NCBI RefSeq assembly: GCF_027941775.1
Contig: NZ_CP115917.1
Coordinates: forward strand, 2,151,001-2,215,000
Length of the DNA: 64,000 nucleotides
Direction: 5' to 3'
Source: Tenacibaculum pacificus
GTDB lineage: Bacteria > Bacteroidota > Bacteroidia > Flavobacteriales > Flavobacteriaceae
Shown here in pieces: positions 14,413 to 44,166 of this stretch (the stretch's first letter is position 1; each line of letters begins with the position of its first letter). The translations under genes and the position numbers were made by a program. Below the pieces are notes generated by a model that made no database searches, was not told where the DNA came from, and worked only from the letters and a program-made list of their open reading frames with translations.

Positions 14413-16597
14413 TTATCTGATAAATAATAATTCTCTATACTTTGTTAAAGGCCATAAATTGTCATCAACCAATAATTCTAACTTATCGCAATGGTAGCGT
14501 ATTTCATCAAAAAAGGGTTTTACTTTATTGCAATAATTATCTGCATTTTTCTGCCCAACAAACGTATTTGTTATTTTACGCTCTTCGGTCATTTGTTCAA
14601 TTTTAGAATTGATTCCTGCAATATGTCCTGATATTTTTTTGATTAAATCAAGTTGTTCTTTGGCGTATTGCTCAAAACCGTTTCCAAAAATCTCTTTTAA
14701 ACCTTTTACATTTTCGATTAATGTATTTTGATATTGAATTGCCGTAGGAATAACATGATTTCTTGCAACATCTGCCAATACTCTACTTTCAATTTGAATA
14801 CGCATTGAATATTCTTCTAATTCAATTTCACGACGAGCAACCACTTCAATGGTATTCATCACATTCATTTCTTCAAAAAGTGAAATTGATTTTTCAGAAA
14901 CTTTTGCTTTTAAAGCCTCGGGAGTTGTTTTATTATTACTTAAACCACGTTTTTCAGCTTCTTTTTCCCATTCAATTCCGTAACCATCGCCTTCAAACCT
15001 AATTTTTTTGATTCCTTAATATATTCTCTTAATACATTAAAAATAGCTTCATCTTTTTTAAGACTTTTAGCATCGACTAATTTATCTACTTCAATTTTAA
15101 ATTCTTTTAATTGCTTCGCGATAATCGTATTTAAAACCGTCATCGGTCCTGCACAATTAGACCAAGAACCTACTGCACGTAATTCGAATTTATTTCCTGT
15201 AAAAGCAAAAGGAGAAGTTCGGTTTCTATCCGTATTATCCAATAATATTTCAGGAATTTTACCTACAATGTTTAATTTTAAATCTGTTTTTTCTTGAGGC
15301 GATAATTTTCCTTTTGTAACGTTTTCTAATTCATCTAATACTTCGGATAATTGCGACCCGATAAATACCGATATAATTGCTGGCGGAGCTTCATTTGCTC
15401 CCAATCTATGATCATTACTTGCACTTGCTATCGATGCTCTGATTAATGCTTCATAGTCATGTACTGCTTTTATAGTATTTACAAAAAAGGTTAAGAACTG
15501 TAAATTTTTCATCGGAGTTTTCCCTGGACTCAATAAATTAACACCTGTATTGGTTGCTAAAGACCAATTATTATGCTTTCCTGAACCATTGATTCCTTCA
15601 AAAGGTTTTTCAGTTGAAACAAAACTTTAAATTGATGACGTTGTGATACTTTTTCCATCACATCCATTAATAATGAATTATGATCTACAGCTAAATTAGC
15701 TTCTTCAAAAATTGGCGCTAACTCAAACTGATTTGGTGCAACTTCATTATGACGTGTTTTTACAGGAACTCCTAACAACATACATTCTTGCTCTAGGTCA
15801 CGCATAAAACTCATCACTCTATCAGGAATTGAACCAAAATAATGATCATCTAATTGTTGTCCTTTTGCAGGAGAATGCCCTAAAAGTGTTCTTCCTGTCA
15901 TCATTAAATCAGGTCGAGCAGCCGCCAAAGCTGTATCAATTAAAAAATATTCTTGTTCCCATCCTAAAGTTGCATTTACTTTAGAAACATTCTTATCAAA
16001 ATATTTACAAACTGCTGTTGCTGCTGTATCAACAGCTTGCAAGGCTCTCAATAAAGGTGCTTTATTATCCAAAGCTTCGCCTGTATAAGCGACAAAAACC
16101 GTTGGAATACATAATGTTGTACCATACACAAATGCTGGCGATGTTGGATCCCAAGCAGTATAACCACGAGCTTCAAAAGTGTTTCTTATCCCGCCACGCG
16201 GAAAACTAGAAGCATCTGGTTCTTGCTGAACTAATTGTCCACCATCAAAGCGTTCCATAGCACCACCGCCTTCAATAGTTTCAAAAAAAGCATCGTGCTT
16301 TTCTGCTGTTGCACCTGTTAATGGCTGAAACCAATGTGTATAGTGAGTCGCATTTTTAGATAATGCCCAATCTTTCATACTTACCGCAATTTGATCGGCA
16401 ATTTTTCTATCAATTTTATTTCCGAACTCAATTGCATCCATGACACTTTTATACGCATCTTTTGTCATATACTGACGCATTGCTTGCTCATTAAAAACGT
16501 TTTTCCCGAACAATTCTGAACGACGCCCTTTTACTTCAATAAAAACAGGTTTTCTATTTAAAGTTTCTTTTAAAGCGTTAAATCTTAAAGTTGACAT
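14413..16597 (-). pseudogene. glnN: Type III glutamine synthetase (GSIII), two frame changes
   Basis: About 728 residues when the frames are joined, the normal GSIII length. Start chosen at [17 protein letters not shown] (16597); in-frame ATG and TTG codons lie 24-27 bases upstream. Motifs: [73 protein letters not shown]. Break 1 is at 15611-15616, where removing two bases inside CAGTTG restores [18 protein letters not shown]. Break 2 is an A7 run at 15003-15009, where one more base restores ESKKIRFEGDGYGIEW. The enzyme makes glutamine from glutamate, ammonia and ATP. It is probably intact in the organism. Confidence 0.9.
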
Positions 16598-38500: not shown

Positions 38501-39035
38501 TAGAGCGATGGCTATTCAATTAATTATCAATAAAGAATTAGGTTTAACTAAAAATGAAAATCCGATTCAAGGTGCTTTTATTATTGAAGAATTAACCGAT
38601 TTAGTGGAAGAAGCTGTGTTAACTGAATTTGATAGAATTACAGAGCGTGGCGGTGTTTTAGGTGCTATGGAAACTATGTATCAACGTTCTAAAATACAAG
38701 AGGAAAGCCTGTATTACGAAACTTTAAAGCATAATGGAGAATTTCCTATTATCGGTGTAAATACTTTTTTAAGTTCGAAAGGCTCGCCAACGGTTCAACC
38801 TGCGGAAGTTATTCGTGCAACGGAGCAAGAAAAACAATTCCAAATTCAAACCAAAGAATTAGTAAACAAAGCAAATGACGGAAAAGTTCAAGAACAATTA
38901 GCAATTCTTCAAGAAGCCGCTGTTCAAAATGAAAATTTATTTGATAAATTAATGGAGGCGACAAAATTCTGTTCTTTAGGGCAGATTACCGAAGCTTTAT
39001 TTAAAGTTGGTGGTCAGTATAGAAGAAATATGTAA
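35593..39035 (+). pseudogene. icmF: Fused acyl-CoA mutase IcmF, two frame changes
   Basis: About 1147 residues after repair. Order: B12-binding domain ([32 protein letters not shown]); MeaB-like GTPase chaperone ([50 protein letters not shown]); and a mutase barrel ([40 protein letters not shown]). This is the layout of IcmF (isobutyryl/n-butyryl-CoA mutase). Breaks at 36154-36158 and 37693-37697 are both CAATG; removing one A from each restores [14 protein letters not shown] and [11 protein letters not shown]. The 3' end is duplicated beyond the neighbouring island. Confidence 0.92.
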
Positions 39036-39181: not shown

Positions 39182-40978
39182 TTAATTAAACTTATTTTTA
39201 GATATTCTTTCTTCAAAAAATAATTTATGTTTATTAATAATATCTAAAATTAAATTCTCACTAACATTAAAGTTTTTAGGGTCTATTTCTACTCCTCCAA
39301 TAGAAGGTAATATTGGTTTATTTGAGGATAATATATCAAATTCACTCTTAAAAACCTTCTTGTATTTTTCTTGCTCGTTTATTGATAATATATAAAGTCC
39401 TGAAACTTTGAAAACATCTGAAACTACCCCTAAGCCATGTAAATATTTAAAGCAAAGGTCATTTACTTCATTTTTGAATTTATTATTATTATTGTATTTT
39501 TTGTACTTAGCATCTAAGATTAAAAATTCTTTAAATCCATTTTTTTTAAATTCAATTATATAATCAGGGTTGTAAATGTTTTTTTGATTGGTAAAGATGG
39601 TTAATAATTTAATTTCTTCAGGTAAACTTTCATAATATAAAGTAACGACTATACCTTCACTGTCTTTCTCAAATGTATAAGAACCTGCTAGTTTATTTTT
39701 ATTATTAATGATTTGATTAAATTCATAATTATCATTAGAACTAATGCAACCTTTAATTATGTAAAATACATATACCTCAAAAAGTTTATCAAAAGATTCA
39801 ATTTCTAAATTATTTTTAATAGAGCTACTTTTAATTTCTTTAGAAAATAAATTCTTGTACAATAACATTAACTCAAACCAATTTTTATAATGTGGAATTG
39901 ATGTAAGTGAATAAGAGTCAACAGGAAATTCAAATACAGGGCTATTTACCTTCAGTACGTTAGTGAAATAATCATGTGTTTTTTTAAAATGAGTAGTAAT
40001 TTCATTAATATATAATGAGATTATACTATAATATTTTGAGGTTAAATATTCATAAAAAGTACCCGAATATCTAGTTCTTAAAATTGTTTTTTTATTTAAA
40101 TTAGTATGTAAATCATTTAAGAGTAATATATACATTTTAGAGTACCCTAAAATCAATCTATTCTCGTATGAATTAAATGTGTAATTGCTAACTTGTTGAT
40201 TAATATTTGAAATAACACATTCTTTAGATTTAATTTTTAAATCATACGTTCCATTTTTTTTGTTTTGTTGACCAATCACGTCAAGGTTATGGAATAACCA
40301 ATCAAATGATTGATCGTCAATTAAAGATTTGGAACTATATGGTAAAACCTGATGCTCAGTTTCATATTTCTTTATAGAATTAAAATAGAAAATTTCTGTT
40401 TTTTCAGAAATATATTTACTTTTTGCATAAAGAAGCTTTAATGACTCCAAGAAAGAATTTTGAAAGTTAGAAAATTCTGTAGGTAAACTTGTTTTGTAAA
40501 TTACTGTTTCATCGAAATAATTGTTAAACATTAGATATTTAATAATCAAATCAAAATTAGTATCTGAAACTTTATGAGATATTATTTTAATTGAAGTACA
40601 ATTATCAATTTTATTTTTATAGATTATTTGAGGTTTTACATAACCTAGCTCATTTAAAAATAATTGAGAAAATTTAATTCCATAATTACTCACCCTAAAA
40701 CTTAAATTAGATTCATTAAATAACTTTGAATTTAATGATAAAAAATAGTGATAATCATTGCTATTAATAGAATAATTTTCATCTAAGCTAAAGCTAGTTG
40801 AACCTAAAATAAACTCGAATTTATCTAATTCAATTAAATAATTACTAACTATTTCAAAATGAACCATATCAAGTTCATTTATTGTTATATCATGATTTTC
40901 ACGATGTAGGTCATGTTTTTGGTAAGAATTGATAATTTTACCATTTTCAAAATCTGCTATATATAGATATAATTTCAT
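39182..40978 (-). CDS. McrC-like PD-(D/E)XK nuclease (DUF2357-type)
   Basis: 598 residues. The N-terminal ~400 residues are beta-rich then helical, with no recognised motif. The C-terminal ~200 hold a nuclease core: a helix with Glu (FDKLFEVYVFYII, ~398-408), then Asp472 in NPDYIIEF and Asp489-Ala-Lys491 in LILDAKYKKY. This is the PD-x(n)-(D/E)xK signature. That order and the McrB-like gene just upstream match McrC/DUF2357 subunits of type IV restriction. Its ATG overlaps the ATPase stop (TAATG), so synthesis is coupled. The DNA is more AT-rich than the trp region. Modified-DNA or RNA cleavage is inference. Confidence 0.75.
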   Translation of the reverse strand: MKLYLYIADFENGKIINSYQKHDLHRENHDITINELDMVHFEIVSNYLIELDKFEFILGSTSFSLDENYSINSNDYHYFLSLNSKLFNESNLSFRVSNYGIKFSQLFLNELGYVKPQIIYKNKIDNCTSIKIISHKVSDTNFDLIIKYLMFNNYFDETVIYKTSLPTEFSNFQNSFLESLKLLYAKSKYISEKTEIFYFNSIKKYETEHQVLPYSSKSLIDDQSFDWLFHNLDVIGQQNKKNGTYDLKIKSKECVISNINQQVSNYTFNSYENRLILGYSKMYILLLNDLHTNLNKKTILRTRYSGTFYEYLTSKYYSIISLYINEITTHFKKTHDYFTNVLKVNSPVFEFPVDSYSLTSIPHYKNWFELMLLYKNLFSKEIKSSSIKNNLEIESFDKLFEVYVFYIIKGCISSNDNYEFNQIINNKNKLAGSYTFEKDSEGIVVTLYYESLPEEIKLLTIFTNQKNIYNPDYIIEFKKNGFKEFLILDAKYKKYNNNNKFKNEVNDLCFKYLHGLGVVSDVFKVSGLYILSINEQEKYKKVFKSEFDILSSNKPILPSIGGVEIDPKNFNVSENLILDIINKHKLFFEERISKNKFN

Positions 40979-42087
40979 TAGTTAAAAAAGGTGAAAACTT
41001 GAAAACCACTTCCTTTCTCTTTTATTTTCTTTACTATTTTACTAGATTTAAATAATTGATATTTTATTAACAATTCTAATAGGTCATCAAGCATTTTTTC
41101 AAATGATTTACCTTGTCCTAATATTTGAGGTAATACAAATTGAGCAATAGCAAAATCTATATGTGAGTATTGATTAGATGTATATTTAGACATTAATTCT
41201 CTTGAAATATTACAATACTTAGTGATTGATTTAATTTTTCTTCTACTAATCAGAATTGAACCATCATTTTTTAATGTCTTAAAAATCTCTCCTAAAATTT
41301 CTTTTTCTTTTGATAAAAGACTAACATCTTTTGAATTAAAAAGTTTTTCTAGTTCTTTAAAATCATAAAAACCTTTAGATTGATAATTAATGTTTTCTAC
41401 GGTATCAAAAGTTAATGTATTATCACTTTCTAATGTTATTATTGGAGCTCTATCTATTAATCTAGGTGAAAGCCTTTCAGTTGTATGGTCGTTATTTATA
41501 GTAGCTATAAACCTCATTAAATTAGGAATTTTTAAAGTATTATGCGATTTTAAATCTAATTTTAAATTTCGTTTATCCTTATCTTCATCATAAAGAGAAA
41601 TAAAATCAGACCAATAATACTCTATAGGACTTAAATTAGCCTCGTCTAATAAAATATTCAATGGTAGATTTATTGGAGTTTTATTATAGCTTATTATTTT
41701 TTTAACAAAACCAAATTCATCAAATTGATATGTTTCATTTATAGGATTATTATATCCTAGTAAAACTTTTCTAGAATTCCAACCTTTTGAAACAGGCATT
41801 TTTAGATAACAGTTTTTGTGTGTAAAAAACTCTGAAAGTAAATTTGAAAGAGAGGTTTTACCTATACCTGGCAATCCTGAAAAAATTATTAAGAAATTCT
41901 GAATATAAAGTATAATAAAATTTAAAATTTCTTCTTTTTTATAGCTCCTCCCGTTATATTGTAAGAACATTTTTAAATCTTCTATAATTACCTCTAATGA
42001 TTCAGTGTTTGTAAGTTCTAGTTCTTCATCAATTAATAAAAGAAAGTTGTTTTCATTTTCTTTTTGCTCAGAATAGGAACCATTCAT
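40978..42087 (-). CDS. McrB-like AAA+ ATPase/GTPase
   Basis: 369 residues. Walker A is FSGLPGIGKTSLSNLLSEFF (residues ~71-79). Walker B is LPLNILLDEANLSPIEYYW (~145-151), close to the McrB form. Sensor 1 is RFIATINND (~193-200), and an arginine pair lies in LSPRLIDRAP. McrB subunits form nucleotide-driven rings that move along DNA and activate McrC. Unlike E. coli McrB there is no DNA-binding N-terminal domain, only ~60 residues before the AAA core. Target recognition may therefore lie in the IF-2-N/coiled-coil protein encoded 17 bases upstream. Confidence 0.82.
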   Translation of the reverse strand: MNGSYSEQKENENNFLLLIDEELELTNTESLEVIIEDLKMFLQYNGRSYKKEEILNFIILYIQNFLIIFSGLPGIGKTSLSNLLSEFFTHKNCYLKMPVSKGWNSRKVLLGYNNPINETYQFDEFGFVKKIISYNKTPINLPLNILLDEANLSPIEYYWSDFISLYDEDKDKRNLKLDLKSHNTLKIPNLMRFIATINNDHTTERLSPRLIDRAPIITLESDNTLTFDTVENINYQSKGFYDFKELEKLFNSKDVSLLSKEKEILGEIFKTLKNDGSILISRRKIKSITKYCNISRELMSKYTSNQYSHIDFAIAQFVLPQILGQGKSFEKMLDDLLELLIKYQLFKSSKIVKKIKEKGSGFQVFTFFN

Positions 42088-42104
42088 TAATTCAAAATAA
42101 GGAC

Positions 42105-43787
42105 TTATTTCCCTGATTTTTTTTCAATATCTTCTTTCGATTCTTTAACTAAATCTTTTTGTAGCTCCGTTATTTGTTTTTCTAATGTATTTTTCTTATT
42201 TCCTAGTTCTATTATACTGTTATAAGACGTATCTAATTCACTTTTATTCTCTTCAATCGTATTTTTTAATGTTTCGAATGTTTCAACTATTTTTAGCTCT
42301 TGTTTTTTATCAATGATAGATTTTTCAATACTAGCTAATTCTTTACTACTCTCAATAATACTCTCTTTTTCGTTTGAAAGCTTTTGTAAATCAAATTCTA
42401 ACTTCTTTTTTTCTTCTTTATTATTATCAACAGATATAATTAAATCTTTTTCTTCTTCTTTTAATGAATCTATAGAAGATTGTATCTCTTCTAAATCTTT
42501 TTTAGCTTTTATTTCAGCCTCTTTTTTGAGTTCTTCTATTTTATCTTGTATTACCCCTTCCTTATTTCTATTAATATAAGAATCTACATACTCTTTACCT
42601 AAATCAGTTTGTAAATAACTAGGTAAGATGTTGAGCTTAATAAAATCAAATACTTTTTCTGAACCCGCTTTTATTTTAAGAAATTTTTGATATCTTAGTT
42701 TATTAATTTCATTAAAACCTCCTTTTAATAACTTACTCTCATCTTCTTTTTCTGGAAATGAAGCTTCAATTATCTTTATAATTTTTTCATTACTTTCATT
42801 TAGAATTAGATTAACAGGTTTAACTTCTTTTAATAGATGTTTTATATTTGTGATATAAGAATCTTCTTTTCGTTGACTACGATTAAAATAATATTTATTT
42901 ACTATATATTCTTTTAAGTCAACTGTATCAAATTCATGGATTACATCTTGATAATCTTCGCTTAATCCTAAGTTTTTGGTAAGTAATGATTGGACTTTAT
43001 ATTCATATAGTTTGTCGTCATCTTCATCTATATCTTCATATAAATCCTCTTCGGTAAAATTACTACTAATAGCTAATGGACCAAAAATTTTGTCATTATC
43101 CTTAATAAAAACAAACGAATGATTTTTGTAAGGAAGAGATATAACACCTTCTTCTATAACTTTATTTAAATCTTGATTAATTATCAATGGTAATTTACTG
43201 ATACTAGAAGTTCCTCTTCCAGAAGATTGATATTTCGGACTAGAATCTTTAGTCTCATCATAACTATTAGTTTCTTCGTATTCTATTCTGAATAATTCGT
43301 TTTCATCAAAAACATCTTCGATATCAGAATGAAAATTATAAGGAACTATAACACTCCCTCCATTAGGAAAAAACTCTTTAACATTAACTTTATCAATTTG
43401 TATAATTTGAAAATTATTAAAGAACGAATATTCAGGTCTAACATAACCTACAGTTCTTGCATTTGTTACAATGCGTGTAGCTAATAAGGTTTTATAGTTG
43501 TTAATTATAGGTTCTATTAGTTCATCAACTTTAACATTTGAAATTGGTTTTTTCTTAGATTTAGGTATAGAATCTAAATCAATTTTTCCAACTATTTTTA
43601 CACCTGTACTTTTTTCTTGGGTAGGTTTAAACTCTTCTTTTAGTATACTGTACTCTTTCTCAGTTATTTTTGCTGTAGGTCTAGCTTCAATTTTAACCCC
43701 CTTTTTAGCTAGAAACTCAACAGCTCTATCGAGTGATATATTTAGCTCTCTTAGAACTTTATTTAATCTAAAAATTTTTATTTCCAT
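42105..43787 (-). CDS. IF-2-N-like domain fused to long coiled coil (candidate sensor subunit)
   Basis: 560 residues. Residues ~5-55 (FRLNKVLRELNISLDRAVEF, LAKKGVKIEARPTAKI) look like the N-terminal domain of flavobacterial translation factor IF-2. A middle region of ~330 residues is acidic and unrecognised (SLPYKNHSFVFIKDNDKIFG, EDLYEDIDEDDDK). Residues ~415-555 are a long coiled coil (KIEELKKEAEIKAKKDLEE). There are no GTPase or other IF-2 domains. It is the first gene of an operon with the McrB-like and McrC-like genes. A target-sensing or scaffold role is inference. I know no named family with this layout. Confidence 0.65.
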   Translation of the reverse strand: MEIKIFRLNKVLRELNISLDRAVEFLAKKGVKIEARPTAKITEKEYSILKEEFKPTQEKSTGVKIVGKIDLDSIPKSKKKPISNVKVDELIEPIINNYKTLLATRIVTNARTVGYVRPEYSFFNNFQIIQIDKVNVKEFFPNGGSVIVPYNFHSDIEDVFDENELFRIEYEETNSYDETKDSSPKYQSSGRGTSSISKLPLIINQDLNKVIEEGVISLPYKNHSFVFIKDNDKIFGPLAISSNFTEEDLYEDIDEDDDKLYEYKVQSLLTKNLGLSEDYQDVIHEFDTVDLKEYIVNKYYFNRSQRKEDSYITNIKHLLKEVKPVNLILNESNEKIIKIIEASFPEKEDESKLLKGGFNEINKLRYQKFLKIKAGSEKVFDFIKLNILPSYLQTDLGKEYVDSYINRNKEGVIQDKIEELKKEAEIKAKKDLEEIQSSIDSLKEEEKDLIISVDNNKEEKKKLEFDLQKLSNEKESIIESSKELASIEKSIIDKKQELKIVETFETLKNTIEENKSELDTSYNSIIELGNKKNTLEKQITELQKDLVKESKEDIEKKSGK

Positions 43788-43974: not shown

Positions 43975-44007
43975 ATTGGATTTTTCATTAAAACGAACAA
44001 ATCCAAT
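43975..44007. repeat. 9-bp inverted repeat at the right edge of the island
   Basis: ATTGGATTT (43975-43983) and AAATCCAAT (43999-44007) are exact inverses, 16 bases apart. They end five bases before the icmF remnant. The rest of 43788-43974 is AT-rich upstream DNA of the operon; no clear promoter was picked. Confidence 0.5.
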
Positions 44008-44012
44008 CAAGA

Positions 44013-44166
44013 AAAAGTTCAAGAACAATTAGCGATTTTACAAGAAGCGGCTGTTCAAAATGAAAATTTATTCGATAAATTAATGGAGGCTACTAAGTTT
44101 TGTTCTTTAGGGCAAATTACCGAAGCTTTATTTAAAGTTGGTGGTCAATATAGAAGAAATATGTAA
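44013..44166 (+). pseudogene. Remnant copy of the icmF 3' end
   Basis: 154 bases match icmF 38882-39035 with 11 differences. All 11 leave the protein unchanged ([20 protein letters not shown] to QYRRNM-stop). There is no start codon or upstream gene, so it is not expressed as a protein. The pure synonymous divergence shows it came from a functional icmF allele. It marks the distal border of the inserted three-gene island. Confidence 0.9.

Follow-up and report, generated by a model that had tools for sequence, protein, structure and literature searches.

McrBC-type (type IV) systems, such as that of Escherichia coli K-12, are characterized by GTP-dependent restriction of modified DNA and combine an AAA motor with a nuclease of the McrC type and fold. 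Among their relatives, the CoCoNuTs have an NxD motif in place of NxxD and a motor connected to a long coiled coil. According to the available text of PMC11090510, in which the NxD motif is described, Type I-C CoCoNuTs comprise two genes (CnuB/CnuC), where a fusion of NxD motor and coiled coil, with a CSD-like OB fold at the N-terminus and often a YTH-like domain ahead of the coiled coil, is accompanied by a McrC-like partner. In Type I-B (CnuA/CnuB/CnuC), as presented there, the CSD/YTH goes with a GTPase, and the coiled coil lies on a separate protein, CnuA, which carries a small helical (PYD/CARD-like) head and ends in a REC domain. The locus described here lies in a 64,000-nt stretch of Tenacibaculum pacificus (GCF_027941775.1, NZ_CP115917.1 positions 2,151,001-2,215,000, forward strand), hereafter the window, and had been presented in a preliminary description as a three-gene restriction-like system with a separate recognition protein. 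Its sequence and predicted structures identify it as a McrBC variant of the CoCoNuT-like kind that bears an additional IF2-N head. Rather than a natural three-gene system, it most likely comprises two genes, the McrB-like one being frame-broken in the assembly, and its identity as a frame-broken, CoCoNuT-like, two-gene system with an IF2-N head is held with high confidence.

A probable single McrB-like gene read as two

The ORF list confirmed the layout first reported, with three open reading frames (ORFs) on the minus strand. ORF1 (560 aa) and ORF2 (369 aa) are separated by a 17-base gap, and ORF2 and ORF3 (598 aa) share one base (TAATG):

42105..43787, minus strand, ORF1, N-terminal half of the McrB-like protein (from the ORFs, the fused relative, the structure model and the fold search)
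40978..42087, minus strand, ORF2, C-terminal half of that protein, a McrB-like AAA motor of the NxD type (from the PDB match and PADLOC)
39182..40978, minus strand, ORF3, McrC-like nuclease

However, the view of ORF1 and ORF2 as separate genes was not upheld. In the closest relative found, that of Tamlana haliotis (L026), a single ORF spans both, with 922 aa from its first usual start and 945 codons open. It shows 68% identity in the ORF2 part and 35% in the ORF1 part, and is followed by a McrC-like ORF of 604 aa that is 58% identical to ORF3. In the window, the AAA frame of ORF2 extends upstream past its ATG as KKIREISPYFELMNGSY, homologous to RIGEIQPYFELMNGSY of Tamlana, and the break between the two frames falls on a homopolymer:

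42117..42124, minus strand, run of eight A at which the frame of the single ancestral ORF changes (frame comparison with Tamlana)

These observations bear on the possibility of a true three-gene system, in which a separate CnuA-like coiled-coil protein would act in trans as in the published Type I-B CoCoNuTs. The likeness to Type I-B lies in the three annotated ORFs, ORF1 and ORF2 being distinct in this assembly, and in a separate coiled-coil ORF with a small head, an arrangement for which the available text of PMC11090510 offers a precedent. Nevertheless, the split is here a frame break: the two parts are fused in the closest relative, the AAA frame is homologous upstream of its ATG, and the AAA ORF has at least 700 aa in 73 of the 80 relatives kept, several of the other seven lying at contig ends, while the trio as separate genes was not found elsewhere. 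In addition, the candidate YTH-like part lies within the coiled-coil ORF, the head matches IF2, and Pfam gave no match to a REC domain. A true three-gene system is therefore considered highly improbable. ORF1 is itself the N-terminal half, that is, the recognition part of McrB cut off by the frame break, and thus no separate protein replaces a missing McrB N-terminal domain, as had been proposed. A recognition protein acting in trans was rejected in view of the fused sister gene and the frame continuity.

Frame integrity in the window was evaluated with 26 ORFs of at least 200 aa from the closest congener (G018) that match it (35.8 kb). Five of these 26 core ORFs span more than one frame in the window, icmF and recQ included. 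The open frame of icmF reaches ~1144-1214 aa in most congeners listed versus 449 aa here, and it is short in a few other congeners as well (e.g., G003 and G009). Together, the Tamlana fusion, the frame continuity, the run of eight A and the five broken core ORFs indicate that ORF1 and ORF2 are one gene, and their split is most likely an assembly error. A genuine frame change, through a loss-of-function mutation or a phase switch that leaves the system broken in this strain, would also be compatible with a break at a homopolymer, and defence genes are frequently lost. However, conserved core genes (icmF, recQ) are frame-broken too, which points to an assembly error, and ORF3 is intact with its active site kept, so that a genuine change is regarded as quite unlikely. 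It could also be argued that, since the change from ORF1 to ORF2 is in the -1 sense at an eight-A run, programmed -1 frameshifting yields a short ORF1 protein along with the full fusion, in the manner of dnaX, where programmed frameshifting gives short and full products. Against this, no A run exists at the equivalent position in Tamlana, and such frameshifting has very little probability.

In the printed tally against G018, extra bases occurred in the window at 6 of 80 aligned CATG sites, compared with 0/49 for GATC, 0/164 for TGCA, 0/149 for AGCT, 0/84 for GTAC, 0/81 for ACGT and 4/610 for TTAA. Frame-changing insertions inside CATG sites of core genes were seen, for instance, at 15613, 34855, 34921 and 46535. 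The CATG insertions may reflect base calling that errs systematically where a motif is modified; the eight-A break, being in a homopolymer, differs from them in kind.

Domains of the McrB-like protein and its McrC-like partner

Read in order, ORF1 and ORF2 encode an IF2-N head, a beta-rich and perhaps OB-like part, a candidate YTH-like domain, a coiled coil and a McrB motor of the NxD type:

43584..43787, minus strand, IF2-N head, residues 1-68
43218..43505, minus strand, beta-rich part, residues ~95-190, possibly OB/CSD-like (strands in the structure model; weak Foldseek rows)
42795..43205, minus strand, candidate YTH-like domain, residues 195-331
42144..42563, minus strand, coiled-coil helices, residues 409-548 (structure model)
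41851..41877, minus strand, Walker A GLPGIGKTS, ORF2 residues 71-79 (alignment)
41635..41655, minus strand, Walker B ILLDEAN, ORF2 residues 145-151 (alignment)
41488..41496, minus strand, NxD motif (NND), ORF2 residues 198-200 (alignment)
39506..39568, minus strand, PD-(D/E)XK site of ORF3, P471 D472 and D489-A-K491 (alignment)

The coiled-coil tail attributed to ORF1 was recovered as long helices in the structure model, and in the fused Tamlana relative it is joined to the motor. For the beta-rich part, Foldseek returned a few weak rows of OB proteins, with E values of 0.28 or worse. The best PDB matches of ORF2 are McrB chains (E 1.6e-5 to 3.6e-5), and profile and alignment agree on a McrB-type AAA motor with Walker A and B, in which the N-x-(x)-D motif has the NxD form. 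By pattern, NxD is present in 68 of the 80 relatives and NxxD in none; among the 12 without NxD by pattern, TINND appears in the printed fragments of eight, the remaining four being unassigned.

Likewise, the C-terminal PD-(D/E)XK core recognized earlier in ORF3 stood up to modelling and alignment. The model has a McrC-like fold, with residues 1-113 of low confidence, and the residues of the site listed above are invariant in 35 of 35 aligned sequences. The partner thus has both the McrC fold and the PD-(D/E)xK site of a McrBC-type system. ORF3 reached 4e-4 against Pfam PDDEXK_7, just below the curated cut-off, and had no Pfam match to DUF2357, a domain matched at 3.1e-9 in an E. coli relative (L057).

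These features place the pair, as initially supposed, with McrB/McrC-type systems, and more precisely in their NxD, coiled-coil (CoCoNuT-like) branch, since its motor has NxD for NxxD and is connected to a long coiled coil. Compared with E. coli K-12 McrBC, it has no match to ADAM/DUF3578, and a coiled coil, a candidate YTH-like domain and an IF2-N head are added. The nearest layout is that of Type I-C, with which it shares the two genes, the fusion of NxD motor and coiled coil and the McrC-like partner; a YTH-like domain ahead of the coiled coil would be a further likeness, and the IF2-N head is a difference. The likening is by layout, in which the beta-rich part is a candidate CSD. The terms IF2, IF-2 and initiation factor have 0 occurrences in the available main text of PMC11090510. 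The candidate system PDC-M26 of PADLOC comes close as well, its PDC-M26A model being matched by ORF2 (E 1.7e-27) and by the fused relatives scanned (overall 1.8e-19 to 1.9e-36), although the best stretch spans part of the model only. The trio does not correspond throughout to a PADLOC model, the match being limited to ORF2; none of the nuclease partners scanned had one, and a literature search found no publication under the name PDC-M26.

The IF2-N head and the host IF2

Both sequence comparison and fold search confirmed the IF2-N-like head, the first ~56-65 residues of ORF1 corresponding to the N-terminus of IF2. The likeness to IF2 (InfB) ends there: the GTP_EFTU-type GTPase domain that follows the N region of IF2 was not matched by Pfam in ORF1, the tRNA-binding part is missing, and the rest of the protein is McrB-like. 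The head shares 60% identity with the N-terminus of the IF2 encoded by this genome, and the heads of ORF1, of the Tamlana McrB-like protein and of two other defence proteins described below (G830 and G912) show 57-69% identity to the IF2 of their own genomes. Moreover, in an alignment of five defence heads with four IF2 heads, ten columns are invariant. The link to translation suggested earlier was strengthened by this resemblance to the N-terminus of the lineage's own IF2 and by the presence of the domain on further proteins of immune type.

In a tree of the heads, which is weak evidence given ~60 residues, those of the Tamlana McrB-like protein and the G912 ATPase group with the IF2 of those genomes (support 80) and that of the G355 helicase with its own IF2 (support 89), while the ORF1 head groups with that of G830 (support 89). 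The head of another carrier, G187, is remote from its own IF2 (27% identity). Because the heads are scattered across the tree, their sequences suggest that the IF2-N head was captured more than once. When viral contigs were scanned for a phage-borne IF2-N by means of the head alignment, 154 pattern matches arose, 0 of which were confirmed by tblastn.

The Tamlana IF2 itself has IF2_N and GTP_EFTU domains. In the Tamlana McrB-like gene (L026:931-1003), an in-frame stop lies at 931 and no usual start codon precedes the IF2-N head. The first ATG/GTG/TTG is inside the head, and the gene may start at an ATT or have a frame problem.

IF2-N on other immune-type proteins

Three surveys, partly overlapping in genomes, were carried out: one of 249 Flavobacteriaceae with a one-sequence query (239 with a match, 4 with two) and two with a profile, of 395 Flavobacteriales (353 and 6) and of 385 Bacteroidia (344 and 10). 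The profile was seeded with the five defence heads (ORF1, Tamlana, G830, G912, G355) and the four IF2 heads. The non-IF2 carriers found number 14 (15 with Tamlana), of which 10 belong to conflict-type families, one is unclassified and three are not defence proteins, the defence share being a raw tally without a background rate. The conflict-type families comprise McrB-like proteins, LRR-Roc-COR-TIR/-CHAT proteins, AriA-like ATPases and Mokosh-like proteins, and all four second carriers of the first survey, ORF1 included, are conflict-type. Of the findings made here, this broader distribution of IF2-N among immune-type proteins is the one of interest.

A clear defence neighbourhood surrounds four carriers. 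G830 (L204:4441-8028) is a LRR-Roc-COR-TIR protein with an IF2-N head, encoded between type I restriction-modification (RM) and McrBC genes. G912 (L211:9170-11188) is an AriA/NsnB-like ATPase that has zinc motifs of the DnaJ type and in which IF2-N is internal; its gene adjoins type I RM genes. G355 (L212:6234-10433) is a MkoA-like helicase that bears IF2-N and S1 domains and is encoded in a BREX-like island, its neighbours being BrxL, PglZ and Card1-like genes. In the second survey, G187 is a protein of 754 aa with a weak MkoB match (6.3e-7), which adjoins a MkoA-like helicase and has an SspB/DUF4007-like gene nearby. For the remaining five, all from the third survey, the conflict-type call comes from the protein family alone: an AriA-like ATPase (G732, 1.9e-15), a LRR-Roc-COR protein with a weak CHAT match (G723), and three McrB-like proteins of ~900 aa with an IF2-N head from one genus (G465, G504, G537). 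No McrC was seen beside these three genes in the stretches read, and the one scanned, G465, matched PDC-M26A at 2.6e-27. Of their loci (L244, L245, L246), the gene in L246 adjoins infB in convergent orientation.

Also from the third survey come the unclassified protein (G512), whose C-terminus is ExoX-like, and the three non-defence carriers, which are small and charged (G593, G694, G735). Such small charged IF2-N-headed proteins of 262-274 aa, apparently not defence, are encoded at L250:6052-6855, L251:5750-6574 and L252:6323-7111, the last preceded by a RadA-like gene. Second matches in G190 (279 and 859 aa), G252 (988 and 934) and G338 (872 and 872) were taken as IF2 copies and left uncounted. 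In G202, a match on C3 (4.5e-4) in a phosphotransacetylase-like ORF was taken as chance, and a would-be carrier on C8 proved to be IF2 running off the contig.

Possible role of the IF2-N head

By analogy with McrBC as covered in the available text of PMC11090510, the McrB-like subunits would form a nucleotide-driven ring, on which the McrC-like protein would dock, stimulating hydrolysis and supplying the nuclease. The beta-rich and YTH-like part may read RNA or a modified base, and the IF2-N head could be an extra module for docking or sensing, by which the complex takes on the appearance of IF2. So disguised, it might sit at initiating ribosomes or be touched by phage factors acting on IF2; recognition would then start the motor, and the nuclease would cut phage or host nucleic acid. 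That immune ATPases, Roc-COR proteins and Mokosh-like proteins, unrelated to one another, all bear this domain argues that IF2-N carries recognition rather than catalysis. A head serving only as a captured start signal is disfavoured, the domain being internal in G912, placed after another N-terminal stretch in G355 and towards the C-terminus in G732.

Whether the head is an IF2 mimic engaged in recognition is evenly poised, and we lean slightly towards the whole explanation, a frame-broken CoCoNuT-like McrBC system with an IF2-mimic recognition head. Plant immune receptors carry integrated decoys, and in Bacteroidia IF2-N may likewise be a module for immune recognition that has not been described before, namely an integrated translation-factor mimic (decoy or dock) captured repeatedly from the host infB. 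Unrelated immune proteins (McrB/CoCoNuT-like motors, LRR-Roc-COR-TIR/CHAT proteins, AriA-like ATPases, Mokosh-like helicase and PLD proteins) would have received it at their start, middle or end, and would use it to sense the state of translation initiation or an attack on it by phages; this broader proposal is tentative, and we give it a little less than even weight. Alternatively, the IF2-N fold could be a small general module for binding nucleic acid or protein, whose immune use has no relation to IF2 or translation. Against this stand the 57-69% identity of four heads to the IF2 of their own genomes, the ten columns invariant across defence and IF2 heads, and the conflict-type nature of all four second carriers among the 249 Flavobacteriaceae; the general-module explanation appears rather unlikely, though it keeps appreciable weight.

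In E. coli, IF2 takes part in phage Mu replication, according to the available text of PMC3334882. The Mu case shows by analogy that a phage can involve IF2, and says nothing for the present lineage. No publication on IF2_N in a defence context was found, broader searches giving none among the matches listed. With the false three-gene system removed, a sharper claim emerges, namely that different bacterial immune machines may bear a copy of the same translation-factor piece. The published idea that CoCoNuTs act on translation would thereby gain a concrete handle, the binding partner of IF2-N, and bacteria may, like plants in their immune receptors, make use of integrated mimicry of host factors.

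Site of the cassette

The cassette is located between icmF and recQ and is bordered by a direct repeat of 171 nt:

38865..39035, plus strand, icmF 3' end, left copy of the repeat around the cassette (91% identity between copies)
43996..44166, plus strand, icmF 3' end, right copy of the repeat (repeat comparison; empty site in congener G018)

In the genome of G018, ~200 bases separate icmF from the same next gene and the cassette is absent, and the trio was found in 0 of 15 other congener stretches read. None of the ORFs was seen to be an integrase. The sequence beyond the right icmF copy is closer to G018 than that beyond the left copy, as would follow from the arrival of an element with an icmF end of its own. 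From these comparisons, the cassette looks like an inserted element carrying its own icmF end, and the defence system was probably acquired horizontally. In 500-base steps, the G+C content of the cassette is 21-27%, and that of its flanks is mostly 27-34%, with one step at 23%.
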